From Giesbergeria sp. (GTDB lineage Bacteria > Pseudomonadota > Gammaproteobacteria > Burkholderiales > Burkholderiaceae_C): DNA of 64,000 nt. The position numbers were made by a program, and so were the translations under genes. Each line of letters opens with the position of its first letter. The stretch's first letter is position 1. The notes under the pieces were generated by a model. It was not told the origin of the DNA. It searched no databases and was given only the letters and a program-made list of their open reading frames with translations. Below, one piece after another: positions 8,399-41,887 of this stretch. Where the stretch lies: positions 62,001 to 126,000 of the forward strand of contig NZ_JAQUCA010000001.1 of NCBI RefSeq assembly GCF_028686475.1. The letters run 5' to 3'.

Positions 8399-8513
8399 TT
8401 TCTAATAACGCTGCCAAGGCTTTATACGCTGACACCTGCCATGCGCGCACAATCACTTTCTTGCCCGCCGGGCCTGCAATACTCCCTTCTTCCACTTGCT
8501 TGACGCCGCCCCC

Positions 8514-10739: not shown

Positions 10740-10778
10740 GCGCCTCGCCCCCTTTAGCTGCCGAAAGAAGAACCCATC

Positions 10779-15663: not shown

Positions 15664-15667
15664 CCCG

Positions 15668-16189: not shown

Positions 16190-16407
16190 CCCCTTTCCAA
16201 CCGATTGAGAACGCCAACAATGCCGACTTGCGCGGCTCCTTACTGGCCCTGCAACGCGCTGCCCTGCGCGCCCGGCAAATTGCCGCACAGACCGGCACTG
16301 CCGTGGTGGTGGTGCGTAATGGGGTGCTAGAGCATATCTATCCCCAAGCGGGCCACACCGACAGCGCGCCGCAGGATGCGGCTTCTGTCAACGGAAAAGC
16401 TACATGA
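16186..16407 (+). CDS. Small protein of unknown function within the type III R-M operon
   Basis: It encodes 73 residues and overlaps its neighbours by 4 bases on each side (ATGA at both junctions), which supports it as a real coupled gene. The central part is alanine-rich and probably helical (LLALQRAALRARQIAAQTG) followed by a beta-like stretch (TAVVVVRNGVLEHIY). I do not recognise a family. Its place directly after a zeta-like kinase makes an antitoxin or partner role conceivable, although in classical epsilon-zeta pairs the antitoxin gene comes first. Confidence 0.65.
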   Translation: MTPFQPIENANNADLRGSLLALQRAALRARQIAAQTGTAVVVVRNGVLEHIYPQAGHTDSAPQDAASVNGKAT

Positions 16408-19109
16408 GCGCCTTCACACCCAAACGCTACCAAGAGCAAGTGCTGGAGAGCGTGCAAGCCTATTTCAAGGCTTGCCACGAACTGCCGTCGCCCTCGATAG
16501 CCTTTACCGCCACCACCGAACGCTTATGGGGGCAAGGCAACCCCTACTACCCCTTGACGGGATTTCCGCCGGATATGCCCTACTTTTGCTTGCGTGTGCC
16601 CACCGGCGGCGGCAAAACTTGGCTGGCCGCCAAGAGCGTGCAGCTGGTCAATACGCACCTGCTACGCTGTGAACACAGCGTTATCCTGTGGCTGGTGCCC
16701 AGCAAGCCCATCCGTGAGCAGACCCTCAAGGCACTCAAAAATCGCGCCCACCCTTACCATGCCGCACTGCGCGAGGCTGGCCCTATCACCGTATTGGATT
16801 TGGACGAGGCCAAAAGCATCACCCGCGCCACCTTGGACAGCTCTACCACCATCATCGTGGCCACGCGACAAGCGTTTCAAGTGGAAGAGGAAGAATGCCG
16901 CAAGGTGTACCAGTCCAGTGGCGCACTAATGCACCACTTTGACAACCTGTCACCCGCACAGCGCGATGCTTTGTTACGCGATGGTGAAGGCACAGAGCGC
17001 ACCACGCCCTATTCACTCGCTAACGTGTTGCGCTTGCGCCGCCCGTTTGTCATTGTGGACGAAGCGCACAACAGCCGCACCGAATTGGCTTTTGATATGC
17101 TGGCACGCTTTCGCCCCAGCGGGGTCATGGAGCTTACCGCCACGCCGGATTTGGAACGCACACCCAGCAACGTGCTACACAGCGTGTGCGCCGCCGAGTT
17201 GAAGGCGGAAGAAATGATCAAGCTGCCAGTGCTGCTGCAAACCGAACCGAATTGGCAGCAGTGTTTGGCCGATGCCCTTGGCCGCCGTGAGGCGCTGCAC
17301 CAGCTGGCCGCTGAAGAACAGCGTGCCGGTGCGCCCTATTTGCGCCCCTTGGTGCTGATACAGTCCGAGCCGCGCCGCGCCGGTGTGGAAACACTGGATT
17401 TTGAGCGGGTGAAAAACGAGTTGCTCAGCAACCACAATATCCCGGCCCACGAGATAGTAGTGGCCACTGGCGACGAAAAAGGGCTAGAGCAAATCGAGGC
17501 CGATTACCCATTGGGCATTGCCGACCCAGCTTGTCCAGTCAAGTTTGTTATCACCCAGAAGGCACTGGCCGAGGGCTGGGATTGCCCGTTTGCCTATATT
17601 TTGGTGAGCATGGCATCGTTATCGTCGGCCACGGCGGTAGAGCAATTGCTGGGGCGCGTGTTGCGCCAGCCAGGGGCCAGCCAGCGGCAGGCCAAGGCGC
17701 TCAACCAATCCTATGCCTTCGTGGTCTCGCGCAACTTTGCCGACACCGCTGGGGCTTTGCGTGACCGGCTGGTGGCTGGCGCTGGTTTCGAGAAGCGCGA
17801 GGTGGCAGAGTTTGTCACCGCTGCCAAGGCAGAACAGGCGCGACTGGACTTGGAAGGCCACGCTGGGCGTGTCGTGGTTCGCCCCGTCACCATTACCCTG
17901 CCAGAAAAGCCCAACCTGAAAAGCGTGCCCAAACCTGTGCGCGACAAGGTCAGCTGGGATGGCAAACTCAACACCCTGACCATTAGCACCCCACTGACCG
18001 AGGACGAGGCCGAAGTTCTCAGCGCTTCAGTCACCTCGGAAACTGCCGCAGCGGCCATCGTACAAGCCGCCGAAGCCAGTCGCACCACGGCCATCGAGTT
18101 CTTTCAGACTCCTGCCGAATTGGGGGTGCGCTTTGCTGTGCCGCAGTTGGCCTTGCGTGTGCAGGGTGAGCTGATTTTGTTCGATGACCCGGAGGTATTG
18201 GAATACCCGTGGGACTTGTCACCCTACGATGCGGCCCCCACTGCCGATGAGCTGTTCTTACTCGGCGCTGGCCTGAAAGTGGCCGAAGGTGGGGAGATTG
18301 ACGTGGATAACGCTTCTGGTCGCGTGACTGCGCGTTTTTTGCCTGAACTGCAACGCGATTTGGGGTTGGTCTATCAGCCCGAACACTGGGATACCATTCG
18401 CCTTGCCACTTGGCTTTGCCGCAACTTGCCAGAACCATCTTTAACCCACACCAGCAAACAGGCTTTTGTGGCGGCATGGCTGGTTGATTTGCTGCGCCGG
18501 GAGGGCTTCACCTTAGCGCGTGCCAATGTGCAAAAATTTTTGATACGCCAGCTGTTAGAAGCGCGTATCCGAGACTTGCGCCAGCAGGCGGTGAGCAAAG
18601 CCTACCAGCAACTGCTGTTTGGCAGCGATGTTGCATCGCGTGTAGCGATAACCGACCAGTATGCCTTTGAGTTTCACGCCCAAGCCTACGCCCCCAGCCG
18701 CGATTACGACGGGCGCTTTGGTACCTTCGATTTCCGCAAACATTTTTATGGCCGTATCGGTGATTTCGACAGCAAAGAAGAGTTCGAATGCGCTTGCCAG
18801 CTGGATATATGGGCGCAGCAAGGCCGCATCGAGTTTTGGGTACGCAACCTGGTGCGGCGCGAAGCTTGCTCGTTTTTTCTACAAAAAGCTGATGGCCGGT
18901 TTTACCCAGATTTTCTGTGCCAGTTACCCGGCAACACAGACCACCCAAATGCCATTCTTGCAGTGGAATACAAAGGCGCAGACCGCTGGAATAATGCCGA
19001 AGACGACCGCCTGATGGGTGGCCTCTGGGCCAAGCTGTCCGAAGGCCGTTGCCGCTTCGTGATGCTCAAGGAGAGGCGCTGGGATAGGATAGCAGAGGCG
19101 CTGCAATAA
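16404..19109 (+). CDS. res: Type III restriction endonuclease subunit Res
   Basis: Res is the ATP-dependent translocase and nuclease of type III systems; it acts in complex with Mod. The 901-residue protein has the superfamily 2 helicase motifs: Walker A VPTGGGKTW (about residue 65), DEAH-type IVDEAHNS (about 217), motif III TATPD, and motif VI-like QLLGRVLRQPG. Near the C-terminus a PD-(D/E)xK-like nuclease core is visible (FYPDFLCQL followed by LAVEYKGAD, about residues 832-857). It overlaps the small upstream gene by 4 bases. No frameshift is seen, so the system looks intact. Confidence 0.94.
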   Translation: MSAFTPKRYQEQVLESVQAYFKACHELPSPSIAFTATTERLWGQGNPYYPLTGFPPDMPYFCLRVPTGGGKTWLAAKSVQLVNTHLLRCEHSVILWLVPSKPIREQTLKALKNRAHPYHAALREAGPITVLDLDEAKSITRATLDSSTTIIVATRQAFQVEEEECRKVYQSSGALMHHFDNLSPAQRDALLRDGEGTERTTPYSLANVLRLRRPFVIVDEAHNSRTELAFDMLARFRPSGVMELTATPDLERTPSNVLHSVCAAELKAEEMIKLPVLLQTEPNWQQCLADALGRREALHQLAAEEQRAGAPYLRPLVLIQSEPRRAGVETLDFERVKNELLSNHNIPAHEIVVATGDEKGLEQIEADYPLGIADPACPVKFVITQKALAEGWDCPFAYILVSMASLSSATAVEQLLGRVLRQPGASQRQAKALNQSYAFVVSRNFADTAGALRDRLVAGAGFEKREVAEFVTAAKAEQARLDLEGHAGRVVVRPVTITLPEKPNLKSVPKPVRDKVSWDGKLNTLTISTPLTEDEAEVLSASVTSETAAAAIVQAAEASRTTAIEFFQTPAELGVRFAVPQLALRVQGELILFDDPEVLEYPWDLSPYDAAPTADELFLLGAGLKVAEGGEIDVDNASGRVTARFLPELQRDLGLVYQPEHWDTIRLATWLCRNLPEPSLTHTSKQAFVAAWLVDLLRREGFTLARANVQKFLIRQLLEARIRDLRQQAVSKAYQQLLFGSDVASRVAITDQYAFEFHAQAYAPSRDYDGRFGTFDFRKHFYGRIGDFDSKEEFECACQLDIWAQQGRIEFWVRNLVRREACSFFLQKADGRFYPDFLCQLPGNTDHPNAILAVEYKGADRWNNAEDDRLMGGLWAKLSEGRCRFVMLKERRWDRIAEALQ

Positions 19110-28933: not shown

Positions 28934-31723
28934 ATGACTATCGTTACATCATTCACCACCGCCCAAGTCAGAGGGCTAACTCCAACGCAAATCGCTGCTC
29001 TAACCACAGCTGAATTCGATGAGTTGAGTCCCAGTCAGTTAGGTGTACTCACCTCAGGACAGTTGGCAAGCGTCACTACAGCACAGTTGGCTACGCTAAG
29101 TTCTGCGGACATCCCAAACCTCTCTACTGCGGCCATTCCAGGCTTGGTAGCAGGATCTCTGACATCGAACCACACGATCGGGATGATCCCGGCACAGGTC
29201 AAGGCACTGACCTCGGCACAGGTGTCACTGATGAGTACAGCCGCCTTTGACGGCTTGACATCGGCCAACCTGAGCGGTCTGACCTCGGTTCAAACACGGG
29301 CTATGAACTCAGCGCAGCTCGCCACCATCAATTCGGCAGAAATTGCCAGCCTGTCCACCTCGGCCATTAGAGGCCTAGACGCGGCAGCGGCTCCCGGCTT
29401 GGGTTCATCGCAGACCAGCGGGATGATCCCGGCACAGGTCAAGGCACTGACCTCGGCACAGGTGTCACTGATGAGTACAGCCGCCTTTGACGGCTTGACA
29501 TCGGCCAACCTGAGCGGTCTGACCTCGGTTCAAACACGGGCTATGAACTCAGCGCAGCTCGCCACCATCAATTCGGCAGAAATTGCCAGCCTGTCCACCT
29601 CGGCCATTAGAGGCCTAGACGCGGCAGCGGCTCCCGGCTTGGGTTCATCGCAGACCAGCGGGATGATCCCGGCACAGGTCAAGGCACTGACCTCGGCACA
29701 GGTGTCACTGATGAGTACAGCCGCCTTTGACGGCTTGACCTCGGCCAACCTGAGCGGTCTGACCTCGGTTCAAACACGGGTTATGAACTCAGCGCAGCTC
29801 GCCACCATCGGTTCGGCAGAGATTGCCAGCCTGTCCACCTCGGCCATTAGAGGCTTGAACGCGGCAGCGGCTCCCGGTTTGGCTAGCTTGCAGACCAGTG
29901 GGATGAACGAGGGACAGGTTAGGGCACTGACCTCGGCACAGGTGTTACAGATGAGTACGGCCGCCTTTGACGGCTTGACCTCGGCCAACCTGAGCGGTCT
30001 GACCTCGGTTCAAACACGGGCTATGAACTCAGCGCAGCTCGCCACCATCGGTTCGGCAGAGATTGCCAGCCTGTCCACCTCGGCCATTAGAGGCTTGAAC
30101 GCGGCAGCGGCTCCCGGCTTGGGTTCATCGCAGACCAGCGGGATGAACGAGGGACAGGTTAAGGCACTGACCTCGGCACAGGTGTTACAGATGAGTACGG
30201 TCGCCTTTGACGGCTTGACTTCGGCCAGCCTGAGCGGTCTGACCTCGGTTCAAACACGGGTTATGAACTCAGCGCAGCTCGCCGCCTTCGGTTCGGCAGA
30301 AATTGCCAGCCTGTCCACCTCGGCCATTAGAGGCTTGAACGCGGCAGCGGCTCCCGGCTTGGCTAGCTTGCAGACCAGCGGGATGAACGAGGGACAGGTT
30401 AGGGCACTGACCTCGGCACAGGTGTCACTGATGAGTACGGCCGCCTTTGACGGCTTGACCTCGGCCAGCCTGCGCGGTCTGACCTCGGTTCAAACACGGG
30501 TTATGACCGCAGTGCAGCTCGCCACCATCAATTCGGCAGAAATTGCCAGCCTGTCCACCTCGGCCATTAGAGGCCTGAACGCGGCAGCGGCTCCCGGCTT
30601 GGATTCATCGCAGACCAGCGGGATGAACGAGGGACAGGTTAAGGCACTGACTTCGGATCTAATTGCCCAACTTTCTACTCTGGCGTTTAGTGGGCTAACT
30701 CCCGCGCATCTAACCACTGCACAGATCAAGGCGTTAACTGATCCACAGATTGACACTTTGACAACAACAGAACTTGCCACACTGAGTCAAGCACAGATGG
30801 TCGCCTTCACCGATACGCAAAAAGCGGGGATGGATACTGCACAAACCGGTGCTCTCATGTCATCTCCCATTGTGCTTGACTTGAACGGTGACGGCGTGCG
30901 CACTGTCTCGGTGGCCGAGGGCGTGCAGTTTGCTCTGGGCACCGATGGCCTGTTGCGCCAAACTGGTTGGGTGTCACCTGCCGACGGTCTGTTGGTGCGT
31001 GATCTCAATGGCGATGGCATCATCAACAATGGCCGCGAGCTGTTTGGTACCGCCACTGAACTCAGCCCCGGTGTCACCGCCGTAGATGGCTTTGCCGCCT
31101 TGCGCGCCCTTGATAGCAATGGTGATGGCCGTATCACCTCTGCCGATGCCGCCTTCTCTGAATTGGCTGTCTGGAAGGATGGCGATGGCAACGGCATCAC
31201 AGGCGCTGGTGAGCTGGTGAGCCTGCAAGACGCTGGTGTCGCTGCGCTGCATTTGGACGCTAAAGTCTCCACCGAGACAGACAACGGCAACTTGTTGGGC
31301 TTGGTTTCGTCCTACGAAACCACCGATGGCACCCAGCGCGATTTGGTCGATGTCTGGTTTGTTCAAGGGGATGTTGCAGCCGATTCCTTGCGCGCCGCCG
31401 TCAGTGACCTGACCGAATCCTTGGGCAGTTATCTCGACAACGGCACAGGAGGAGCAGCAGGGGGCGGAGATTCGGCTCTGCAAGGCAACAATACGCCATC
31501 CTCCACCTTGGCCGAAGCCGGTAGCCCGAACAACAACGCGCCAGCGACTCCCGCAGCGCTACTGACACCGTTGTCGGACTACTACCGCAGTGCTGGTGCA
31601 GGGTTCGTTCCGGGTTCCGAGGCTGGTACCAATTTGGTCGGCTTGTTGTCCGGTACTGGCTCACAGACCTCGCCATTGTCATCCGCACCGTTGGCAGCGG
31701 TGGATACGATCAAGGTCAAGTAG
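28934..31723 (+). CDS. Secreted octapeptide-repeat protein with calcium-binding C-terminal region (probable type I secretion substrate)
   Basis: The 929-residue protein has no N-terminal signal peptide. Residues 8 to about 640 are almost entirely octapeptides of the form [ST]-[ST]-x-[QE]-[LIV]-x-x-[LM] (TTAQVRGL, TPTQIAAL, TSAQVSLM, NSAEIASL), about 75-80 in all, many arranged in 80-residue super-repeats of ten octads. From about residue 640 comes a domain common in RTX-like secreted proteins, rich in EF-hand-like loops (PIVLDLNGDGVRT, VRDLNGDGIINNG, ALDSNGDGRIT, WKDGDGNGITGAGE), then a Gly/Ser/Ala-rich tail. Lack of a signal peptide, the Asp-rich C-terminus and the HlyB/HlyD genes nearby point to type I secretion. 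AAAGGAG at 28922-28928 fixes the start. Cell-surface adhesin is the likeliest role; not proven. Confidence 0.85.
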   Translation: MTIVTSFTTAQVRGLTPTQIAALTTAEFDELSPSQLGVLTSGQLASVTTAQLATLSSADIPNLSTAAIPGLVAGSLTSNHTIGMIPAQVKALTSAQVSLMSTAAFDGLTSANLSGLTSVQTRAMNSAQLATINSAEIASLSTSAIRGLDAAAAPGLGSSQTSGMIPAQVKALTSAQVSLMSTAAFDGLTSANLSGLTSVQTRAMNSAQLATINSAEIASLSTSAIRGLDAAAAPGLGSSQTSGMIPAQVKALTSAQVSLMSTAAFDGLTSANLSGLTSVQTRVMNSAQLATIGSAEIASLSTSAIRGLNAAAAPGLASLQTSGMNEGQVRALTSAQVLQMSTAAFDGLTSANLSGLTSVQTRAMNSAQLATIGSAEIASLSTSAIRGLNAAAAPGLGSSQTSGMNEGQVKALTSAQVLQMSTVAFDGLTSASLSGLTSVQTRVMNSAQLAAFGSAEIASLSTSAIRGLNAAAAPGLASLQTSGMNEGQVRALTSAQVSLMSTAAFDGLTSASLRGLTSVQTRVMTAVQLATINSAEIASLSTSAIRGLNAAAAPGLDSSQTSGMNEGQVKALTSDLIAQLSTLAFSGLTPAHLTTAQIKALTDPQIDTLTTTELATLSQAQMVAFTDTQKAGMDTAQTGALMSSPIVLDLNGDGVRTVSVAEGVQFALGTDGLLRQTGWVSPADGLLVRDLNGDGIINNGRELFGTATELSPGVTAVDGFAALRALDSNGDGRITSADAAFSELAVWKDGDGNGITGAGELVSLQDAGVAALHLDAKVSTETDNGNLLGLVSSYETTDGTQRDLVDVWFVQGDVAADSLRAAVSDLTESLGSYLDNGTGGAAGGGDSALQGNNTPSSTLAEAGSPNNNAPATPAALLTPLSDYYRSAGAGFVPGSEAGTNLVGLLSGTGSQTSPLSSAPLAAVDTIKVK
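29181..30660 (+). repeat. Tandem 240-bp coding repeats, six full copies plus a partial
   Basis: Copies start at 29181, 29421, 29661, 29901, 30141, 30381 and (partial) 30621. Copies one and two (29181-29420 and 29421-29660) are identical base for base. Later copies differ mainly at a few fixed positions (for example IPAQVKAL versus NEGQVRAL or NEGQVKAL; GSSQ versus ASLQ), and some variants recur in non-adjacent copies, as expected from recombination or gene conversion. Each copy encodes ten octapeptides, so copy number can change without a frameshift. Confidence 0.97.
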
Positions 31724-31741
31724 GCCGAGCTGTGATCCACG

Positions 31742-31763
31742 ACCAGCCACTTCGGTGGCTGGT
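31742..31763 (+). other. Perfect 9-bp hairpin with TTCG tetraloop
   Basis: ACCAGCCAC-TTCG-GTGGCTGGT lies 18 bases after the repeat-protein stop codon. The UUCG loop is exceptionally stable in RNA. It immediately precedes a rho-independent terminator and probably protects the 3' end of the abundant repeat-protein mRNA or assists termination. Confidence 0.7.
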
Positions 31764-31767
31764 TCAC

Positions 31768-31805
31768 AACGGGCTGTACCTTGATCGGGACAGCCCGTTT
31801 TTCTT
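31768..31805 (+). terminator. Rho-independent terminator between the repeat-protein gene and the glycosyltransferase gene
   Basis: AACGGGCTGT and ACAGCCCGTT form a 10-bp stem around a 12-base loop, followed by a T-rich tract (TTTCTTGTTATTTTG). The next gene starts at 31822, only about 17 bases later, with no obvious ribosome binding site or own promoter between. Expression of the downstream gene may therefore depend on partial read-through or on a promoter inside the repeat-protein gene. Confidence 0.75.
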
Positions 31806-31821
31806 GTTATTTTGATTGTCT

Positions 31822-33591
31822 ATGCCTGTATCTTCACTCTCTCTCAATGACCTGATGGCGCAGGCCGATGCTTTGCAACAACAAAAGCTGGTAGATCAAG
31901 CCATTACCTTGTACCAGCAGTGGCTGCTGACACACGATGCCGATCCCTTGCGCTTGGTGGCGTGGTTTAATCTGGGTGTTTTATTAAGTGACAAACAACG
32001 CATTGCCGAAGCCCAAGCAGCTTACGAACAGGCGATACAACTTAACCCCGATTTTTTTCAGGCGCGCTTAAATTTAGCGCATACGCTAGAAAATCAAGGT
32101 CAGCGGCAAGAGGCCATTAAACGATGGCAACAAGTATTAACCGATTTAGAAAAAACCGGTTCATCCGATCAAGCCATACAGCTACATGCTCTCAATAATA
32201 CTGCGCGAGCCTTAGAGTTAGAACATCGCTTTGATGAGGCTGAAGCCTATATGCTGCGTAGCCTGCAAGTTGATCCGACACAATCGCCAGTATTGCAGCA
32301 TTATGTGCATGTAAGGCAAAAACAATGTGCTTGGCCAGTTTATCGGCCCGTAGCTGATGTCACTGTCAACCAGCAGTTACTGGCCACCTCTGCATTGGCT
32401 ATGCAGGCTGCTTACGATGACCCCGCAGTGCAATTATTGGCAGCGCGCGAGTTTGTCCATGCCAAAGTCCAAGCAGCAGCACCTCGTCGGCCACCACGGC
32501 AACGGGCACCTGGCGAGCGCATTCGGGTCGGCTACCTTTCGGGCGATTTGTGTATGCACGCGGTAGGCTTGCTCACCGTAGAGCTGTTTGAACTGCATGA
32601 CCGCCAGCAATTTGAAGTATTTGGTTTTTGTTGGTCGCGTGACGATGGTTCACCTTTGCGCGAACGTATTATCCGCGCCTTTGATCACCATATTCGGATT
32701 GGTCATTTGGATGACAATGCCGCAGCACAATTGATTGCCGCCTGTGGTATTGATATTTTGGTGGATTTACAGGGACTCACTTCTGGAGCGCGGCCTAATA
32801 TTTTGGCCCAACGTCCGGCACCGGTGCAAATCAGCTACTTAGGTTTGCCTGCTACCTGCGGTATGCCTGCTATTGATTATATTTTGGCTGATGCGTTTGT
32901 GTTCCCCCCAGAACTCGAACCTTTCATGACCGAAAAACCCTTGCGGATACCCCACTGCTACCAAGTCAGTGACCGCCAACGCAGCGTCGGCCCTGCCTTG
33001 ACCCGGGCCAGTTGTGGCTTACCAGAAGATAAATTTGTTTTTACCTCATTCAATAACAATTATAAATTTACGCAAGAAATGTTTAGCACTTGGATGCGTA
33101 TCCTCGACCAAGTTCCAGACAGCGTGCTGTGGCTACTGGCGGATAACCCTTGGGCAGAAGCTAACATGAAAAAGCAAGCACAGGCTTGCGGCGTGGATAC
33201 AGCCCGTTTGGTTTTTGCAGCGCGCGCTACACCAACTGAATACATGGCCCGCTTGCAGTTGCCAGACTTATTTTTAGATACTTTCCCCTATAATGCAGGC
33301 ACTACGGCGAATGATATTTTATGGATGGGAACACCTATTTTGACTTATTCCGGAAAAAGTTATATTTCACGCATGTGTGGTAGCCTGTTAACGGCAGTAG
33401 GGTTACCAGATTTAATCACTTATAGCTTGGCAGACTATGAAGAAAAAGCGGTACAACTGGGCATAAACCCACGCAGACTGGCAAGCTACCGGCGTTATCT
33501 TAACGAATTCCGCCAGCAGAGTGACTTATTTGATATACCACAGCTGGTCAAAGACATAGAGCAAGCCTTTCTTTTTAAGGTTCAGTCATGA
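31822..33591 (+). CDS. TPR-containing O-GlcNAc transferase-like (SPINDLY) glycosyltransferase
   Basis: The 589-residue protein begins with TPR helices (about residues 1-150; ALQQQKLVDQAITLYQQWL, QAAYEQAIQLNPDFFQARLN) and ends in a GT41/OGT catalytic domain. Conserved parts are GYLSGDLCMHAVG, DLQGLTSGARPNILAQRPAP, QISYLGLPATCGMPAIDYIL and the C-terminal LPDLFLDTFPYNAGTTANDIL with YSGKSYISRMCGSLL. GT41 enzymes O-glycosylate serine or threonine in proteins in the cytoplasm. The adjacent, Ser/Thr-rich repeat protein is the obvious candidate acceptor; flagellin is another. The stop overlaps the next start (ATGA). ATG 31822 was preferred to an upstream TTG. Confidence 0.9.
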   Translation: MPVSSLSLNDLMAQADALQQQKLVDQAITLYQQWLLTHDADPLRLVAWFNLGVLLSDKQRIAEAQAAYEQAIQLNPDFFQARLNLAHTLENQGQRQEAIKRWQQVLTDLEKTGSSDQAIQLHALNNTARALELEHRFDEAEAYMLRSLQVDPTQSPVLQHYVHVRQKQCAWPVYRPVADVTVNQQLLATSALAMQAAYDDPAVQLLAAREFVHAKVQAAAPRRPPRQRAPGERIRVGYLSGDLCMHAVGLLTVELFELHDRQQFEVFGFCWSRDDGSPLRERIIRAFDHHIRIGHLDDNAAAQLIAACGIDILVDLQGLTSGARPNILAQRPAPVQISYLGLPATCGMPAIDYILADAFVFPPELEPFMTEKPLRIPHCYQVSDRQRSVGPALTRASCGLPEDKFVFTSFNNNYKFTQEMFSTWMRILDQVPDSVLWLLADNPWAEANMKKQAQACGVDTARLVFAARATPTEYMARLQLPDLFLDTFPYNAGTTANDILWMGTPILTYSGKSYISRMCGSLLTAVGLPDLITYSLADYEEKAVQLGINPRRLASYRRYLNEFRQQSDLFDIPQLVKDIEQAFLFKVQS

Positions 33592-34979
33592 TAGAAATTG
33601 TAAGTGCTACCCGTTGGTCAGAAGAAGAATTCTGGAAAAATTCGGCACTTGGAATATCTTTAAGTCGGTTGTTTTTCGATCAACGGATCAAACACTGGAT
33701 TGCCTTTAAAAATAGAAAAGGTTTACCAGAAATATTTAACCAACGCATCCATGCAGAAAATGACATAGAAATTATCGTTTTCATCCATGATGATGTATGG
33801 ATCGACGATTTTTTTCTCGCAGACCGAATTCTCGATGCAGTTAAATCGTACGATATTTTTGGCGTGGTTGGCAACAAAAATAGAAAACATCTACAACCAT
33901 CTTGGGCCTTTATAAATACTTCCGGCACTTGGGACATCCAAGAAAATCTGAGTGGGGCTGTCGCCCACGGAGATATACCTTTTGGCAAGGTAGGTTATTT
34001 TGGCCCATCTCCCGCCGAGTGTGATTTATTAGATGGGGTGCTGATAGCAGTTAGCAAATCAAGCCTCAAAAGAACAAAAATCCAGTTTGACGAAATTTTC
34101 GATTTTCACTTTTATGATGTGGATTTTTGTATTACTGCACAGCAGCAAGGACTGAAAATTGGAACTTGGCCGCTTGCCATCACCCATCAAAGCACTGGAG
34201 GATATGGCATCAATTGGCTCAACGCGTATCAGATTTTTTGTAAAAAATGGAGCATCATTCCGCCAGAATCTGGTACTACTGGTCAAAAAATTTCTTTAGC
34301 ACAAAATATGAAACAAACACCAGCCCACAACCTCATTAACAACGAGTTAATGGCTATGATCCCTGCGGGAACACGTCGCATTGTCGATGTTGGTTGCATG
34401 CATGGTCAAATGGCCCATGTTTATAAAAATATCAATCCCACCGTTCACTACACTGGTATTGATATAGATAAAGACTATGCTGAAGTAGCAAAGCAGCATT
34501 GTGATAATGCCTTCGCAGCAGATATTGAAAAATTAACCCCCTCAGAATGGGATCAACTCTTCCCTTCAGATTGTTGGATTTTCGGGGATTGCCTAGAGCA
34601 CCTACGTGATCCTTGGGCCATCTTGAAGAAAATCAGAAGTTGTATCGATTCTGACGGCTGTGTGCTGGTATGTATCCCTAATGCCCAACATTGGGGAGTG
34701 CAAATGCGTTTGCTATCAGGACAGTTTTATTATGAAGATAGTGGCCTGCTGGATAGAACCCATCTACGCTGGTTTACCAGAGAAACCATGTTAGCGATGT
34801 TTCAGAAAACAGGCTGGGCAGTCACGGCTGGTCTGACCAGAACGTTAGGGCCTTTCTCTGAGCAAGAACCAGTTCTACAAGGCATACGTGCTTTTGCCAC
34901 TGCCTGTGGCCTAGATCCTGAAATGGCTATGGCAGATGCTTTGCCGTTTCAATACATGTTTAAATTGGTTCCTGCATAA
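33588..34979 (+). CDS. Glycosyltransferase-methyltransferase fusion protein
   Basis: The 463-residue protein has an N-terminal GT2-like glycosyltransferase region (about residues 1-235) with an acidic metal-binding motif in IVFIHDDVWIDDFF and a second conserved segment around FHFYDVDFCITAQQQG. From about residue 243 a class I SAM methyltransferase follows (MKQTPAHNLINNELMAM, then VDVGCMHGQMAHVY, and IFGDCLEHLRDPWAILKKI). The methyltransferase half is closely similar to the separate gene that follows, even at its first residues, so the fusion looks like a recent duplication and join. It overlaps the OGT-like gene by 4 bases. The DNA from here to about 38.3 kb is AT-rich, suggesting acquisition. 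Confidence 0.82.
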   Translation: MIEIVSATRWSEEEFWKNSALGISLSRLFFDQRIKHWIAFKNRKGLPEIFNQRIHAENDIEIIVFIHDDVWIDDFFLADRILDAVKSYDIFGVVGNKNRKHLQPSWAFINTSGTWDIQENLSGAVAHGDIPFGKVGYFGPSPAECDLLDGVLIAVSKSSLKRTKIQFDEIFDFHFYDVDFCITAQQQGLKIGTWPLAITHQSTGGYGINWLNAYQIFCKKWSIIPPESGTTGQKISLAQNMKQTPAHNLINNELMAMIPAGTRRIVDVGCMHGQMAHVYKNINPTVHYTGIDIDKDYAEVAKQHCDNAFAADIEKLTPSEWDQLFPSDCWIFGDCLEHLRDPWAILKKIRSCIDSDGCVLVCIPNAQHWGVQMRLLSGQFYYEDSGLLDRTHLRWFTRETMLAMFQKTGWAVTAGLTRTLGPFSEQEPVLQGIRAFATACGLDPEMAMADALPFQYMFKLVPA

Positions 34980-34994
34980 TTATTAGGCATTGCA

Positions 34995-35666
34995 ATGAAA
35001 CAAACCCCTGCACATGATATGGTCAATTATGATTTATTGAACCTCATTCCTGTTACTGCACGCAGAATTGTGGAAGTAGGCTGTATGCACGGACAAATGG
35101 CCAGAGAGTACCTTCTCCGCAATCCTACTGCTAATTATGTTGGTATAGATATTGATCCAGATTACGCCAAGGTTGCAGAGCAATTCTGTACACAAACCTT
35201 CTCAGGAGATATAGAATCGATCAATTCAGAAAAATTTAGCCAACTATTTCCCAGTGATTGTTGGATTTTTGGCGACTGCTTGGAGCACTTGCGGGATCCG
35301 TGGTCTTTATTAAAGAATATTAGAAGCAACATTGACCAAGATGGCTGCTTACTGGCCTGCATTCCAAATGCACAGCATTGGAGTGTGCAATGGCGATTGC
35401 TGTCTGGAAAATTCCACTATGAAGACAGTGGTTTGATGGATAAAACGCACTTGCGCTGGTTAACCCGCACTACTATGGTAGATATGTTCACCTCTACCGG
35501 CTGGAAAATAGAAAATCTCTTTGATCGTATTCCGAACGAAATTCCCTTTCAGGCTTTTGCTCTCAAGGGACTAGAAGATTTTGCAAGAATTTGTGGATTT
35601 GATGTGAATACAGCCAAGCACGACGCTATGCCGATTCAGTACATTTTTAAAGTAGTTCCGGCTTAA
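34995..35666 (+). CDS. Class I SAM-dependent methyltransferase, paralogue of the upstream fusion's C-terminus
   Basis: The 223-residue protein has the SAM-binding motif VEVGCMHGQMAREY and the downstream VFGDxLEHL-type motif (IFGDCLEHLRDPWSLLKNI), followed by CIPNAQHWSVQWRLLSGKF. It begins MKQTPAHDM, almost the same as the internal start of the methyltransferase half of the preceding protein (MKQTPAHNL), so both descend from one ancestor by tandem duplication. The substrate is probably a sugar or glycan, judged by its neighbours. It ends one base before the stop of the convergent gene at 35668. Confidence 0.85.
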   Translation: MKQTPAHDMVNYDLLNLIPVTARRIVEVGCMHGQMAREYLLRNPTANYVGIDIDPDYAKVAEQFCTQTFSGDIESINSEKFSQLFPSDCWIFGDCLEHLRDPWSLLKNIRSNIDQDGCLLACIPNAQHWSVQWRLLSGKFHYEDSGLMDKTHLRWLTRTTMVDMFTSTGWKIENLFDRIPNEIPFQAFALKGLEDFARICGFDVNTAKHDAMPIQYIFKVVPA

Positions 35667-35667
35667 A

Positions 35668-36468
35668 TTAAGAATTAAAAACGGTGTTCCGAATATGAGA
35701 ATAAGCATCTATATATTCTGAAAACCCTTGCTCTTTAAAAGCCATTTTAAGTGCATCACAGACGATGGCTTCTTGCCGAAACTGGCCCAACTTAGTGGCA
35801 GACCATGCAAACTCAAACGGATCTTTGGTCTTGGTTCGCCATTTTTTCTGCATCGTCAATATCAATGAAGCGATTCCCTCCATGATGAATATTTTTCGTT
35901 GTGCATTGGGATAGTTGGTCGCTTGTGTGAGCTTGGCTTTCAGTGGGCTGTCCGCACCCTCACAGATAGAAAAAAGCTGCTCATTAATGAGTAACCATTG
36001 ACGCCAAAAATCAGCCTTAGCAACAAAATAGTTGGAAAAAACAATTTCTCTGGAATCCATAATGATGGCTCTGAGATTGACGTGTATTCCTATAGTGGCT
36101 AAAAACTCCTCACAGGCATCAATTTTCCCGGGATTAAATATTTCACCACCTTCAAACACATTGATAAAAAAAGCGCCAATATCTGGCTGGGGTGAAAAAA
36201 GAAAAACGTCGGCATCATCACTATTGATACTCACAAAATTGAAGACATCCGTGTAACTTAACCCTGTTTTCTGAGAAAATTTTGGAGAAAAGAATCCATA
36301 AAATACATTGTCATCCAGCGGATGATTGAGCAAAAAATGACGAATTGGCCAATACTCAAACCAGTCGGGGCGTTCATTCTTCAAATTATTCAATACAGGA
36401 AACCCCGCAGGGGCCTGTTGCAAGGTTTCAGTGGAATATGCAATGTGGTGTAAGTGAATTTTTTTCAT
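35668..36468 (-). CDS. Unknown protein in the glycan gene block
   Basis: This 266-residue, AT-rich gene encodes a soluble-looking protein without a signal peptide. It starts MKKIHLHHIAYSTETLQQAP and carries aromatic and acidic segments (WFEYWPIRHFLLNH, VFLFSPQPDIGAFFINVFEG). I do not recognise the family for certain; the overall feel is of a glycosyltransferase-like or sugar-modifying protein without a clear DXD motif. It follows the GT2 gene at 36515 in the same direction with 46 bases between, and is convergent with the methyltransferase gene. ATG 36468 was preferred over a TTG at 36471. Confidence 0.7.
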   Translation of the reverse strand: MKKIHLHHIAYSTETLQQAPAGFPVLNNLKNERPDWFEYWPIRHFLLNHPLDDNVFYGFFSPKFSQKTGLSYTDVFNFVSINSDDADVFLFSPQPDIGAFFINVFEGGEIFNPGKIDACEEFLATIGIHVNLRAIIMDSREIVFSNYFVAKADFWRQWLLINEQLFSICEGADSPLKAKLTQATNYPNAQRKIFIMEGIASLILTMQKKWRTKTKDPFEFAWSATKLGQFRQEAIVCDALKMAFKEQGFSEYIDAYSHIRNTVFNS

Positions 36469-36514
36469 CAAAAATCAAGAATTTTGGTTTAACAAATCAA
36501 ATGAAAGAAATTTT

Positions 36515-37453
36515 TTATTTATGTTTTTGTCTAATAAAGATAATTTCTTCAATAAGTTGAGATATATATTTATCAAGTCTTTCGATGGTTGATAAGTTTG
36601 CCAAATGCTGGTATTTCAACTCTTGATTGCCAATAATTTTAATTGGATCGAAAGCAATTTTAAATTCATCCAAAGATGAGGGGTCTTGACCGTAAATCAA
36701 AGAAAATTTGATAATTTCTTCTTTTGATAAATCATAGCCATTACTTCTTATTTCGTTAGATAAATAAATCCAGTGCAGTGCCTCTCCACTAAGTTTGTTC
36801 GACTTCAATGCTATGCTATGAGAGTTTAATAGTAGTTTAGCGATGGCCTGCTCTTTGCTTCGGATTGGTATGTGTGCTAATTTTGATTTGATAGGATATA
36901 TTTCCCATTGACCACCAAGAATAGATTGAATTCGATGGTTTCCGGCCCATACTTGGCAATCTCCGAAGAGGTCTTTAGGAACGATAGATTTATAATGAAC
37001 TACACCTTCAGGATCTCGCCTATGCGTCATGTGGGTGGTAATATTTAAATCTTTGTTAACTGCCTCAAAATTGGGCATATATGTTTTCCAACCTATTCCT
37101 GGATAAAATCCAGCAGGACACATTGCAAGTTCATTGGAGAAATAATTTTTTGATTCTGCATCAATAAATTCATCTGCATCCAGTAAAACACAAAAATCGA
37201 AATTTCTCTCGTCTATGGCAAGTTGATTGATGGCTGCATTAAAAATAATCTCTTGTTGGTGATCTTTCGCTGGGAAGGTTTTGATATCTATGTTTAAACC
37301 TTCGTTCTTCAAGAGTAAAAGAATTTCCAAGGTTTTATCAGTGCTACAGTTGTCAACAACCAAGAGATGATCAAGGTAGTTTAGGTTATGTCTCACAAAC
37401 GATTCAATGATGTCTGCTTCATTGCGTACACAGGTAATTCCAGTAATAAGCAT
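36515..37453 (-). CDS. Family 2-type glycosyltransferase
   Basis: The 312-residue protein has a GT-A fold start (ITCVRNEADIIESFVRHNLNY), a nucleotide-binding stretch LLVVDNCSTDKTLEIL and the metal-binding DxD motif in FCVLLDADEFID. No membrane segment is present, so it acts in the cytoplasm or at the inner membrane surface. The donor and acceptor cannot be told from sequence. The start is only 25 bases from the left end of a decayed IS1-type element, which may have altered its promoter. Base composition is AT-rich like the neighbouring glycan genes. Confidence 0.85.
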   Translation of the reverse strand: MLITGITCVRNEADIIESFVRHNLNYLDHLLVVDNCSTDKTLEILLLLKNEGLNIDIKTFPAKDHQQEIIFNAAINQLAIDERNFDFCVLLDADEFIDAESKNYFSNELAMCPAGFYPGIGWKTYMPNFEAVNKDLNITTHMTHRRDPEGVVHYKSIVPKDLFGDCQVWAGNHRIQSILGGQWEIYPIKSKLAHIPIRSKEQAIAKLLLNSHSIALKSNKLSGEALHWIYLSNEIRSNGYDLSKEEIIKFSLIYGQDPSSLDEFKIAFDPIKIIGNQELKYQHLANLSTIERLDKYISQLIEEIIFIRQKHK

Positions 37454-37477: not shown

Positions 37478-38289
37478 GTAGTGGTGAAATCACAAATAAT
37501 TGATTATTTTAAGAAATTTAATGATTGAAGAAAAAATTATTTATCTCTGCCGTTCATGCAAAAGTGACAACCTTGTAAAAAATGGGCGCTCCATGAGTGG
37601 AAAGCAGCAGTACATCTGTAAGGCATGTGGATGTAGTGGTGGTGTCAATCCTAAGGAGAAATACAGTGAATAAGAGAAAGAAAAAAAATAATTAACGCTT
37701 ACTTTGAGCGCCCCAGCATGAGAGGCATTGAGCGTATATTTGGCGCAACTCGTCCCACACTCACAAAATGGTTAAAAAAGCTAATCTTGAGCCAGCGATA
37801 GAGGATACATTACAGCCTGCCAAGCACGAAGATGTTTTAGAGCTTGATGTGGTCTGGTCGTTTGTACACCAGCGCACCAATAAACGGTGATTGTGGATTG
37901 CTCTGTGCCGCCGCACTAGTAGGCAGGTGGTAGCCTATTTTATTGGAGACCGTAGCGAACTTAGCTGTAAGGCGTTATGGGAACAAATACTAGAAATTTA
38001 TCGTAAATTGCACACCTATAGTGACTTTTGGAATGCTTACAAAAAAGTTTTTCCCGAGGAAACCCACAGTAGCGTTGGAAAATAATCTGGTGAAACAAGC
38101 CATGTTGAACGCTGGAATAACATCCTACGACAATGGGTTTCGCGCTACACTAGAAAAACTTTGTCGTTCTCTAAATCTGATAAATTTCACAACCTTGTCA
38201 CTCATCTTTTTATACGAAAGTGCAATTTAAATTTTTTATTTAGAAGTTAATAATTTAAAAAATAAAAACATTTGAAATTTTACCACTAC
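37478..38289 (+). mobile_element. Decayed IS1-family insertion sequence
   Basis: The element is about 812 bp. Its ends are imperfect inverted repeats matching at 17 of 20 positions (37478-37497 and the complement of 38270-38289, both starting GTAGTGGT). It holds an IS1-like insA/insB reading path that is broken. I see no clear target duplication. It separates the glycan genes from the type I secretion genes and is a sign of past rearrangement in this block. Confidence 0.8.
37521..38250 (+). pseudogene. IS1-family transposase remnant (insA/insB)
   Basis: The N-terminal zinc-ribbon of InsA is clear (YLCRSCKSDNLVKNGR, YICKACGC), as is the C-terminal IS1 signature (HVERWNNILRQWVSRYTRKT). The reading path is interrupted by an in-frame TAA at 37671, a frameshift in the A-run at about 37681, a TGA at 37888 (replacing a Trp codon) and a TAA at 38083. 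A canonical -1 slippery heptamer A AAA AAG is still present at 37774-37780 just where the reading frame passes from insA to insB, a relic of IS1-type programmed frameshifting. The element cannot make active transposase. Confidence 0.85.
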
Positions 38290-38357: not shown

Positions 38358-39767
38358 TCAAGGCTCTCGAATTGCTTCATCCAGCCCCCGCATTACCGGG
38401 TACATCACATACGACATCACGGTGCGCTTGCCCACCACAATTTCTGCACTGAGCGACATCCCAGGAATGAGGGGCGCATTGCGTGGCAGGTTGCGTAATT
38501 CATTCTTTTGCAATATGGCCCGGCCCAAATAGTAAGGGGCATTGGCTTGACCGCTCAAGCTGTCTTTGGTGAAGGCATCTTGCCCCAGTTTTTCCAATTC
38601 ACCTTGAATCAGACCATGTTTTTGGAACGGAAAGGCATCAATTTTGAGGCGCACCGGGTCATGCAGTTTGACGTAGCCTACATCCTGTGCCGCAATTTGC
38701 ATTTCTGCTTGCAGGGTTTCGCCCAAGGGCACCAAGGTAATCAGCGGTTCAGCCTCGCGAATCACCGAGCCGGTGGAGCGGGCAGCCACTTCTTGCACTA
38801 CTGCATCGTGGGGGGCAATCAGTTCAATCATGCGGCTGCGGCGTTCTACTTTTTTCAGTTGTTCCGCGATGGTATCGCGCTCGCGGCGCACTGTCACCAG
38901 CTCTTCGGTGGCTTTTTGTTGCCATTCGCGTATGAAGGCATCTTTTTCGGCTTCGGCACCGGCCAGTTCTTTTTTCAGTTCTAAACTGCGGTTGCGGGCG
39001 CTGATGAGTTCGCGCTCGACTTCTTGGCGGCGTTCACGGCTTTCCAACAGTTTCATGTTCGACTGGAATTGCTGCGCCGTGAGCTTTTCGTTCATGGCCT
39101 CAATATCGCGCAACGATTGCACCCGTGCGGTCAGGCTTTGCACGTCATGGCTGTTGGTTTGGATGGCAGCTTTGGCGCGGTCAATGCTTTCATCCAAGCG
39201 CGATAAGCGGGCGCGGTAGCTGGCCAAGCGCTCGTTTTGCAAGCGCCATTGCAGCAGTTCATCGGGGTTTTGGCTGGCTGGGGGTGCCGTAGTTACGCTG
39301 TTTCTGAATCCCGCTTGTTCGCGCTCCATGCGCTGCACTTGGGCCTCTAGGCTGTTAAAGCGGTCTTGGGATTGGGCTAAATCGGCGTTGATAAAGGTGG
39401 GGTCTAACACGGCCAGCACCTGCCCTTTTTTCACGATTTGGCCCGGTTGCACATGCAGGGCGGCAATTTGTGCGGTTTCTAGCGGTTGCAGTACGGTATT
39501 GGGTTGTCCTGTCACCAGTTTACCGCGTGCCGTGACGATTTGATCGACTTCAAACACGCTGGCCCACACAATGGCCGTAACGATTAAACCCAGCAGAATA
39601 TAGATGGTGACCGACATGCCGCCGGGGGGAGGTGTCTTCTCTAGGGCTTCGGCATCGGGCAGAAAGGCCACCGTCCAATCCTGCACGGCGGGTGCAGGTG
39701 CAGGACTGGCCTTGGCTGTGGACGGCACAGCGGCAGGGCTTACATGTGGCTGGTTTGTTGGTTCCAT
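38358..39767 (-). CDS. HlyD-type membrane fusion protein of a type I secretion system
   Basis: The 469-residue protein has one transmembrane helix near the N-terminus (about residues 55-78, VTIYILLGLIVTAIVWASVF), a beta-barrel/lipoyl segment (ARGKLVTGQPNTVLQPLETA), long coiled-coil helices (about 120-320) and a C-terminal RTX-exporter region (LIPGMSLSAEIVVGKRTVMSYVM in the family). It links the inner-membrane ATPase to an outer-membrane TolC-type channel, which is not encoded in this window. ATG 39767 lies inside the 3' end of the HlyB-type gene (28-base overlap), so translation is coupled. Confidence 0.93.
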   Translation of the reverse strand: MEPTNQPHVSPAAVPSTAKASPAPAPAVQDWTVAFLPDAEALEKTPPPGGMSVTIYILLGLIVTAIVWASVFEVDQIVTARGKLVTGQPNTVLQPLETAQIAALHVQPGQIVKKGQVLAVLDPTFINADLAQSQDRFNSLEAQVQRMEREQAGFRNSVTTAPPASQNPDELLQWRLQNERLASYRARLSRLDESIDRAKAAIQTNSHDVQSLTARVQSLRDIEAMNEKLTAQQFQSNMKLLESRERRQEVERELISARNRSLELKKELAGAEAEKDAFIREWQQKATEELVTVRRERDTIAEQLKKVERRSRMIELIAPHDAVVQEVAARSTGSVIREAEPLITLVPLGETLQAEMQIAAQDVGYVKLHDPVRLKIDAFPFQKHGLIQGELEKLGQDAFTKDSLSGQANAPYYLGRAILQKNELRNLPRNAPLIPGMSLSAEIVVGKRTVMSYVMYPVMRGLDEAIREP

Positions 39768-41887
39768 AGCTGTGTGTAGGGTTCGCAACGGCCCAGCAGT
39801 TCTGTGTGGCGGCCTGCATCGGATAAGCTGCCACGTTCAAAAACAAAAATTTGATCCGAATGTACCAAAGTAGATAAGCGGTGGCTGACGATGATGACAG
39901 TACGCCCAGCGGCGATGCGGCCCAGATTGCGAATAAAGATGGCCTCGCTTTCGGGGTCCAGGGCGCTGGAGGCTTCATCCAAAATCAAAATGCGCGGTGC
40001 GGGCAGCAGCGCACGGGCAATCGCCAAGCGCTGGCGTTGACCGCCCGAGAGGTTGGAGGCGTTTTCTTCCAGCAGGGTGTCGTAGCCTTGGGGTAGGCGC
40101 TCGATAAACTCATCGGCCCCAGCGGCTTGGGCAGCGGCCACAATCAGCTCAAAGCTGGCATCGGGGCGGGCCATCGCGATGTTCTCGCGCACGGTGCCTC
40201 GAAACATGAAGTTGTCTTGCAACACCACGCCAATGCTGCGGCGCAGGTGGGCTAGGTCAATTTCGCGGATGTCAATGCCATCAAAGCGAATCACGCCTTC
40301 TTGTACCGCGTACAGCCCTTGAATCAGGCGGGTAAAGGTGCTTTTGCCCGAGCCACTGCGCCCCACCACGCCGACCACGGTGCCGGGGTCTATGTTCATT
40401 TGGATGCGGTCTAGCGCCGTCATGGCTGCGCCGGGGTAGCGGAAGGTGACAGCATCGAGGCCAATTTGCCCCTTGAGTACCGGGCGCAGGCCGCCGGACG
40501 ATTTGCGCTCGGGCGGGTGGTTCATCACTTCGCCCAGCATTTTGACCGACAGCGCGGTTTCTTGGTATTGGTGTACCAAACCCACAATTTGCACCAACGG
40601 CCCGACCACGCGGTTGGACAGCATCTGAAAGGCAATCAAGCCGCCCACGGTCAACTCTAGGCTAAACACATCCATCGCCCCAATGGTGATGATGCTGACC
40701 ATCATTAACTTCTCTAGCAAATTGGTGATGGTGGCGGCAGTGAGCGACATGCGCCCAACACCAAAGTGCATTTGGATGGTGGTAGCGGTGCGCTGCTCCC
40801 AGACTTTGCGCTGTTTGGGTTCAATCGCCAAGGATTTGACGGTACGCATCCCGTGGATGGTTTCAATCAACATGGACTGGCGCGTGCCCTCGGCGGTATA
40901 AAGGGCTTGCAAGCGCTTATTGAAGGGCTTAATCAGCGCCAGCACCACCAAGGCCATCATGACAGAAAAGCCAAACACCACCAGCGCCAGCTTGGTGCTG
41001 TACGAGGCCAGCAGCGGAATAAACAAAATCAGGCCAATGGAGTCTAGCGCGGTAAAGAACAGTTGCCCGGTCAGAAAACTGCGGATAGCTTGCACCTGCT
41101 GCATGTGGCGTGCAATCACCCCGGCGGTGTGGCTCTCAAAATAATCAATCGGCAATGAGAGCAAATGGCTGAAGGTGCGTTTGGACAGGCGCACGTCCAT
41201 GACGTTGGTGGCGTGCAGCAGCAAATATTGGCGCACAAAGCTAAAGATGGCCTCAAACAGCATCACCCCGACGATGGCCACGGCCAACACGGTCAGGGTA
41301 GAGTAGCTTTGGTGTACCAGCACCTTGTCAATCACCAACTGCGAAAAAATAGGCATCCCCAGCCCGAGCAGTTGCAGCATGATGGCGGCAATGGCAATAT
41401 CCCGAAAGGCTTTGCGTTGGCGAAAAATCTCGGGAATAAACCAGCGCAGGCCAAAGGGTTGGTCGGCATCAAGCCAAGCGTATTGGCGTTTGAGCAGCAC
41501 CAAGCTGCCGGACCACAGCGCGGTCAGTTCGGCTTCGCCCCAGAGGCGCACGCGCCGGGCGGGGTCTTGCGGGTCTAGGACGGCGACTTTGCGTTGCTGG
41601 TCGGCGGGGTCGGTCTCTACCCCAGCAATGATGAGCGAATGGCCATCGTGCTTGCGCGCCAGCATCGGAAACACGCCCTGAAACTGTACCAAGCTGGCCC
41701 AGTTGGTTTGTACGGTTTTGGCTTGCAGGCCGATGTCATTGGCCATGCGGCGCAGCAAAGCATCGTCTGGCTCGCTGGCGGGCAAGGCGTACTCGTGGAT
41801 CAGGCGTTCAGGCAGGGCCTGAATACCGTGGTGTTGGGCAACCACTGTCAGGCACTGCACAGTGGAATGGCTATAGGCAACGCTCAT
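39740..41887 (-). CDS. HlyB-type type I secretion permease/ATPase with C39-like domain
   Basis: The 715-residue protein has an N-terminal C39-peptidase-like domain (about residues 1-130), a six-helix exporter membrane domain (about 155-440) and an ATPase domain with Walker A GRSGSGKST, signature LSGGQRQR and Walker B ILILDEASS. In the C39-like domain the catalytic cysteine position is not a cysteine (HSTVQCLTVVAQHHG), so this is the proteolytically inactive CLD type used by RTX exporters, which bind rather than cleave substrates. It is cotranscribed with the HlyD gene. The nearest likely substrate is the octapeptide-repeat protein at 28934. Confidence 0.94.
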   Translation of the reverse strand: MSVAYSHSTVQCLTVVAQHHGIQALPERLIHEYALPASEPDDALLRRMANDIGLQAKTVQTNWASLVQFQGVFPMLARKHDGHSLIIAGVETDPADQQRKVAVLDPQDPARRVRLWGEAELTALWSGSLVLLKRQYAWLDADQPFGLRWFIPEIFRQRKAFRDIAIAAIMLQLLGLGMPIFSQLVIDKVLVHQSYSTLTVLAVAIVGVMLFEAIFSFVRQYLLLHATNVMDVRLSKRTFSHLLSLPIDYFESHTAGVIARHMQQVQAIRSFLTGQLFFTALDSIGLILFIPLLASYSTKLALVVFGFSVMMALVVLALIKPFNKRLQALYTAEGTRQSMLIETIHGMRTVKSLAIEPKQRKVWEQRTATTIQMHFGVGRMSLTAATITNLLEKLMMVSIITIGAMDVFSLELTVGGLIAFQMLSNRVVGPLVQIVGLVHQYQETALSVKMLGEVMNHPPERKSSGGLRPVLKGQIGLDAVTFRYPGAAMTALDRIQMNIDPGTVVGVVGRSGSGKSTFTRLIQGLYAVQEGVIRFDGIDIREIDLAHLRRSIGVVLQDNFMFRGTVRENIAMARPDASFELIVAAAQAAGADEFIERLPQGYDTLLEENASNLSGGQRQRLAIARALLPAPRILILDEASSALDPESEAIFIRNLGRIAAGRTVIIVSHRLSTLVHSDQIFVFERGSLSDAGRHTELLGRCEPYTQLWNQQTSHM

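Follow-up and report, generated by a model that had tools for sequence, protein, structure and literature searches.

The 64,000-nucleotide stretch of Giesbergeria sp. DNA analyzed here (assembly GCF_028686475.1, contig NZ_JAQUCA010000001.1, positions 62,001 to 126,000 of the forward strand), referred to as the window and numbered from its first letter, encodes a 929-residue protein built of tandem eight-residue repeats (octads). The next gene encodes a glycosyltransferase of family 41 (GT41); no second GT41 gene was found in the genome. HlyB/HlyD-type genes of type I secretion are nearby. On balance, we lean toward a reading in which the GT41 adds O-linked sugar to the Ser/Thr-rich octads while the protein is still in the cytosol, and the resulting stiff glycoprotein rod then leaves the cell by type I secretion. 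This long, rod-like protein of eight-residue helices probably sits on the surface or is secreted, with a coat of sugars. The features on which the argument turns are as follows.

28934-31723, forward strand: coding sequence of the octad-repeat protein, 929 aa, with ATG at 28934 and stop codon at 31721-31723 (open reading frame (ORF) list and sequence; PF20080, 172.4 bits)
28952-30853, forward strand: array of about 78 octads (layout and autocorrelation; 30 octads modelled with AlphaFold2, one short helix each)
29179-30656, forward strand: super-repeats of 240 bp or 80 residues, 6.2 copies (Tandem Repeats Finder, 94% matches)
31816-33591, forward strand: GT41 (OGT/SPINDLY-like) glycosyltransferase with N-terminal tetratricopeptide repeats (TPRs), ATG at 31822 (PF13844, 267 bits)
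38358-39788, reverse strand: HlyD-type periplasmic adaptor of type I secretion (TIGR01843, 284.6 bits, cut-off 208.65)
39740-41887, reverse strand: HlyB-like type I ATP-binding cassette (ABC) transporter with a C39-like N-terminal domain (Pfam; TIGR01846, 643.9 bits, below the cut-off of 725.55)

Octad array and predicted fold

An earlier note on this DNA had placed the gene at the coordinates confirmed here and had counted roughly 75-80 tandem octads. Dynamic programming laid out 78 and left 20 of the first 644 residues unassigned; the layout scoring was derived from the motif itself, hence 78 agrees with that estimate but is not an independent count. Residue identity within the protein is 0.244 at a lag of eight and 0.707 at a lag of 80; in 1000 composition shuffles these values never rose above 0.138 and 0.149, respectively. 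The 240-bp super-repeats of ten octads described in the note are thus real, but their order is confined to the middle of the array and does not extend to its ends, because the 240-bp unit spans 29179-30656. The first two copies are identical at 240 of 240 bases, which indicates a recent duplication. The proposed motif [ST]-[ST]-x-[QE]-[LIV]-x-x-[LM] proved too strict and matches only ten places in the protein. The helix-capping box assigned to each octad holds in part: position 2 is Thr, Ser, Asn or Asp in 66 of the 78 octads, but this cap residue is joined by Gln or Glu three residues on in only 38.

The array belongs to the Pfam family PF20080 (ALTTAQ_rpt), whose gathering cut-off it clearly exceeds (172.4 bits against 26.4, in 24 stretches). 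Matches of the repeats to LepB GAP, arginase, gutA and a heme-binding domain fell below the Pfam/NCBIfam cut-offs and were dropped. AlphaFold2 was run on three super-repeats with an alignment of 46 rows, four from the window and 42 from related loci chosen for regular octads. It returned 30 helices for 30 octads, each four to six residues long (predicted local distance difference test (pLDDT) 94.7, predicted template-modeling score (pTM) 0.88). The model supports a predicted solenoid of very short helices, as the note had supposed. Its further statement that the octad is undescribed does not survive. Besides the PF20080 match, the octads match by sequence a solved chain, 9zem 'HeliScrew4' (E 5e-10 with a single sequence, 1.3e-26 with a profile), the kind of hit that the note had itself named as speaking against a new fold, and we reject an undescribed fold. 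Leucine-rich repeat chains also matched in the profile search, with E values down to 6.6e-13, and these matches may reflect shared leucine spacing.

Database names offer a different function. Relatives on Cereibacter plasmids are annotated 'ICE nucleation protein', and some family members are filed as heme utilization. We give practically no credence to an ice-nucleating or ice-binding protein, since ice-nucleation octapeptides form beta-solenoids, whereas the octads here model as helices with high confidence and match PF20080, not an ice-nucleation family.

Association with GT41 glycosyltransferases

PF20080 was matched in 23 of 119 related genomes, the window's own included. A GT41 at least 51% identical to that of the window occurs in 16 of the 119 (own included), namely in 16 of the 23 with ALTTAQ and in none of the 96 without it (Fisher p 9e-15, relatedness ignored); outside this set the next-best identity is 45%. 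In 12 of these genomes the close GT41 shares a contig with the octad gene, at a distance of no more than about 31 kb, and in four (G007, G020, G041, G060) it is on another contig. Any GT41 at all lies within about 31 kb of an ALTTAQ gene in 15 of the 23 genomes, against 0.67 expected by random placement, and 200,000 simulations of such placement reached at most seven. In a wider sample of the class, ALTTAQ was found in five of 276 genomes, again counting the window's own. Of the other four, one has a GT41 within about 6 kb (G323), two have GT41s on other contigs only (G217, G277) and one has none (G170).

A quick tree of 82 GT41s resolves a group of 43 with an SH-like approximate likelihood ratio test (SH-aLRT) support of 99. 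It comprises 39 enzymes encoded near ALTTAQ genes and four from other contigs of ALTTAQ genomes, and contains none of the 18 control GT41s from genomes without ALTTAQ. A second group of ten (SH-aLRT 100) consists entirely of enzymes encoded near ALTTAQ genes, and four more such enzymes fall elsewhere in the tree.

We also read the loci of the best 80 of 513 relatives, each from a named genome, with flanks of at most 10 kb that in many cases end at contig edges. A GT41 is present in 34 of the 80; of the 74 in which octads directly precede the calcium-binding domain described below, 33 have one. A GT41 frame follows downstream on the same strand in 27 loci, and in 21 it starts no more than 600 nt past the end of the octad frame. 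Type I-like ABC genes occur in 20 of the 80 loci and HlyD genes in 18, GT41 or type I genes together covering 44; the check proposed in the earlier note, whether such genes always neighbor type I secretion genes, thus has a negative outcome. Across 108 loci (these 80 and another 28 stretches taken from relatives, in some cases two per genome), the neighbor clusters include GT41 (in 38 loci), ABC (21), HlyD (19), FdtA-like and DegT-like proteins (ten each) and OEP (six), the last three cluster names being taken from one representative apiece. Two GT41s near octad genes sit in frames of more than 1000 codons, perhaps domain fusions (L142:10953-14252 and L148:2543-5623).

Alternatively, the octad protein could be an adhesin or matrix rod that type I secretion exports without any glycosylation, the nearby sugar genes being part of a surface-polysaccharide island of the sort that often receives such genes. 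The HlyB/HlyD neighbors fit this rod, 46 of the 80 loci lack a GT41 within the stretch read, and polysaccharide loci also carry FdtA, DegT and rhamnose genes. We nevertheless consider it rather unlikely. The association is specific to particular GT41 groups that are often immediate neighbors, not to sugar genes generally, and no type I ABC-HlyD pair was found around 20 GT41 loci from genomes without ALTTAQ, where one 376-aa frame resembles the other ABC transporter of the window.

Octad genes on plasmids and in other classes

The GT41 travels with the octad gene onto plasmids and also across Alpha-, Beta- and Gammaproteobacteria. In 11 octad loci hand-picked among 171 plasmid records with a match, it adjoins the octad gene or lies within about 4 kb in seven, two of them near-copies. 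The order on plasmid pA of Cereibacter sphaeroides 2.4.1 is octad gene, GT41, ABC transporter, HlyD, methyltransferase, kdsA, sulfotransferases and dTDP-rhamnose genes. Pseudomonas asturiensis carries three octad genes followed by GT41, TolC, HlyD and ABC genes, and in Niveispirillum the GT41 lies about 4 kb from the octad gene, beyond the type I genes.

The reverse search, starting from GT41, used 12 hand-picked records of 56 plasmid GT41 records, with those used earlier excluded. Among the seven plasmid GT41s whose query coverage is 85% or more, six have octad frames within 10 kb, although those of L205 end oddly; L208 is the sole miss. None of the five GT41s with lower coverage has octad frames within that distance. 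The constant partner of these GT41s is the octad array, with or without the calcium-binding domain or visible type I genes.

A flagellar role for the enzyme was also weighed. FlgI, FlgJ-like and FlgK proteins and one flagellin-domain protein are encoded directly upstream of the octad gene in the window, on the opposite strand, and on a Pseudorhizobium flavum plasmid (L199) the octad gene lies between two flagellin genes upstream and a GT41. TPR-containing glycosyltransferases that modify flagellin are known. The GT41 and sugar genes might thus serve flagellin glycosylation, with the octad protein a bystander between flagellar and sugar genes. We regard this as improbable, since homologs of the window FlgI, FlgJ and FlgK (at least 60 bits) occur in none of the 80 genomic loci, compared with 34 for GT41, and since the GT41 follows the octad gene onto plasmids and through three proteobacterial classes.

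Calcium-binding domain

Behind the octads, the protein continues into a domain related to the self-processing module of FrpC.

30863-30868, forward strand: Ser-Pro in place of the scissile Asp414-Pro415 of FrpC (alignments; FrpC numbering from the partial text of PMC7078468)
30866-31360, forward strand: self-processing-module-like calcium-binding domain, predicted to be cleavage-dead, residues 645-809 (phmmer match to 6sjw, E 2.5e-37)
31361-31720, forward strand: C-terminal tail, mostly modelled at low confidence and with a few helices (AlphaFold2)

The earlier note had seen here a calcium-loop region like those of type I-secreted proteins. The calcium loops stand, but a repeats-in-toxin (RTX) nonapeptide array is rejected: PF00353 (GGxGxD nonapeptide) is not among the Pfam matches of the protein, and its three matches in the genome all lie outside the window. 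The region is an EF-hand-like self-processing-module domain. Its model aligns with 6sjw in Foldseek (E 7.5e-15, template-modeling (TM) score 0.82 by target length, 46% identity), and the module fold and calcium-binding loops appear to be kept, as judged from the predicted model and from loop residues conserved in the alignment. The C-terminal tail may hold the type I signal.

FrpC is cut at Asp414-Pro415 when Asp414 attacks its own carbonyl, using the Asp carboxylate, and its fifth calcium is held by D414, D478 and D579 (PMC7078468, partial text). In the 80 genomic loci, 80 scissile sites were readable in 78 (all but L104 and L172), 55 of them Thr-Pro and 25 Ser-Pro. Four of the 78 loci lack octads just upstream (L113 being at a contig edge), leaving 76 octad-linked sites in 74 loci. 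Asp-Pro was found at none of the sites in the 80 loci, even with a looser pattern that did not require Pro and gave three extra matches reading Gly-Leu. The place of D478 is Thr in the window and Asp in none of 83 pattern matches, while that of D579 is Asp in 76 of 76, so the Asp pair of the fifth calcium site is not kept as a pair in the window domain. Six plasmid proteins that match approximately the domain only read Asp-Pro in four cases and Ser-Pro in two; loss of the Asp is therefore not unique to the octad-linked family. We predict that the window module folds with calcium and has lost cleavage, because its scissile Asp is replaced by Ser, as it is by Ser or Thr in the related loci.

Active clip-and-link, in which calcium-triggered self-cleavage before the domain cross-links the rod to its neighbors, draws on the homology to the FrpC module, on the retained Pro, calcium loops and D579 place (residue roles from the partial text of PMC7078468) and on two invariant Trp residues that, judged by eye, line up with the pair in FrpC. 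It is rejected on residues and we hold it to be very improbable: the mechanism published for FrpC, in the same partial text, needs the Asp carboxylate, whereas the scissile residue is Ser here and Ser or Thr at all 80 sites, and the D478 place is likewise replaced.

The calcium domain was not seen in ten alphaproteobacterial plasmid octad proteins (L194, L196-L204). Those of Cereibacter and Niveispirillum end at an octad resembling the one at which betaproteobacterial members continue into the domain. A phage origin was discarded, as one of 50,697 phage records matched, across the calcium domain alone.

Candidate acceptor position and proposed mechanism

Position 3 of the octad is Ser or Thr in 87% of 11149 octads from Beta- and Gammaproteobacteria and in 77% of 1342 from Alphaproteobacteria, the selecting pattern permitting nine residues at that position. 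In HeliScrew4 it is Pro in 11 of the 13 octads of the alignment, so the octad fold seems not to need Ser or Thr there. O-glycosylation of the octads is favored because the octad array is the constant partner of the GT41 and because Ser or Thr is so frequent where the fold does not seem to call for it.

We infer that the GT41 encoded by the adjacent gene adds a sugar from its donor to octad Ser or Thr in the cytosol, likeliest at position 3, close to where each short helix begins. Neighboring transferases and methyltransferases may then extend or cap the sugar. Gene order and family suggest that the HlyB/HlyD-type system would export the protein without an N-terminal signal. Outside the cell, calcium would fold the self-processing-module-like domain, its fold being assigned by homology and the triggering by analogy. 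With Ser in place of Asp, the module would be unable to cut and could act as a calcium-dependent folding domain, not a protease. The product may be a stiff filament coated with sugar that lies on the cell surface or in the matrix and serves in attachment or protection, and its repeat copy number could be altered by unequal recombination between the near-identical 240-bp units.

Several observations weigh against this mechanism. Besides the 46 genomic loci mentioned above, four of the 11 plasmid ALTTAQ loci have no GT41 within the stretch read, and the near-copies L196 and L204, two of the seven positive loci, make the plasmid counts overstate the association. Among the 23 ALTTAQ genomes, GT41s lie on other contigs only in five and far away in G066, and none was found in G037, where the octad gene is at a contig edge, or in G068, which has one weak octad match. 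Some GT41 is present in 67 of the 119 genomes, and GT41s of other groups are common without ALTTAQ; it is therefore the subgroup and the place that carry the signal. The genomes are also related to one another, so that p values and counts overstate and give a direction, not exact odds. Type I genes occur in a minority of loci and none stand alongside the rhizobial members, where export may differ. In the window, the repeat and GT41 genes have a predicted terminator between them, and flagellar genes also adjoin the locus. Finally, Ser or Thr caps the helix structurally when at position 2 and is in any case well suited to a helix start when at position 3, which makes composition alone a weak argument.

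We would bet neither for nor against a broader extension of the idea. It would be a portable proteobacterial system: a giant solenoid of eight-residue helices would be decorated by a dedicated OGT-family enzyme before its export, which in several lineages would proceed by type I secretion. Nearly every helix would carry a Ser/Thr acceptor, spacing the sugars helix by helix, and some lineages would end the protein in a self-processing module that has been tamed by losing its cutting Asp.

Other features of the window

The genes between and around the octad, GT41 and type I genes are listed here.

31741-31799, forward strand: tandem hairpins followed by a T-run, a predicted intrinsic terminator between the repeat gene and the GT41 gene (RNA fold -38.8 kcal/mol, z -6.1)
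33588-34979, forward strand: glycosyltransferase-methyltransferase fusion (Pfam)
34995-35666, forward strand: methyltransferase (Pfam)
35668-36471, reverse strand: 267-aa protein with no Pfam/NCBIfam match and with homologs in ten of the 80 related loci
36515-37453, reverse strand: GT2-type glycosyltransferase (Pfam)

A consensus terminator scan did not list the hairpins. The type I export genes, the neighbors that the earlier note had expected, begin 6.6 kb downstream of the end of the repeat gene. By eye, the catalytic Cys position of the C39-like domain reads Ser, and an IS1-type insertion-sequence remnant with broken frames (37519-38195) separates the GT2 gene from the type I genes. TolC (OEP) had no Pfam match among the window ORFs searched, which were a part of the total.

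Further from the locus, two cyanophycin-synthetase-like genes (6086-13346) are divergent from an ABC transporter gene. A DNA methylase, a Zeta-toxin-like AAA protein and a ResIII helicase follow one another at 13930-19109 and resemble a type III restriction-modification locus. Perfect hexamer repeats, CTGGTA in 9.8 copies (56886-56944) and GTGGCG in 8.2 copies (57105-57153), lie in a 663-aa minus-strand ORF (56260-58251), and 84-bp tandem repeats (60512-60736) lie within a 1385-aa minus-strand ORF (58267-62424).

Comparison with known systems

None of the components is new in itself, since repeat, module, GT41 and type I secretion were all known before. We recognized no report of the pairing of GT41 with the octad family, of the systematic loss of the cutting Asp, or of octads, GT41 and type I secretion together in the open-access literature covered, which comprised titles and openings of abstracts and had most subscription journals and bioRxiv outside it; nor was a paper carrying the name 'HeliScrew4' found in open-access literature. 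If the proposed mechanism is true, it would provide a concrete, testable substrate for bacterial OGT/SPINDLY-like enzymes, tie cytosolic O-glycosylation to type I secretion, and make sense of a repeat family partly filed as heme utilization or ice nucleation protein. The idea is directly testable in the laboratory strain Cereibacter sphaeroides 2.4.1, where octad gene, GT41 and type I genes share one stretch of pA. The octad rod could also serve as a simple scaffold for protein design.

The PF20080 match line gives a family name and no function; the window member differs from that entry in its 80-residue super-repeat and its self-processing-module-like domain. HeliScrew4 resembles the array in its tandem octads of the LTPEQIAA kind, but has 120 residues and mostly Pro at position 3 in the alignment. 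It is likened to the octad model by sequence alone, being absent from the 50 Foldseek rows shown. The best Foldseek match of the model is mesothelin (E 4.3e-5, TM score 0.38, 14% identity), a right-handed solenoid of short helices that differs in being ARM/HEAT-like and for which strict octads are not reported in the partial text of PMC10035497. At this TM score we claim no kinship.

The calcium-binding domain shares its fold and calcium loops with the FrpC module (6sjw, 6sjx), but the scissile Asp has become Ser and the D478 place Thr, and it follows octads, whereas the FrpC module sits within an RTX exoprotein. The neighboring enzyme has in common with OGT and SPINDLY the PF13844 catalytic domain and TPRs. 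These well-studied GT41s modify many nucleocytoplasmic proteins, whereas in the present case a single GT41 group goes with a single repeat family.

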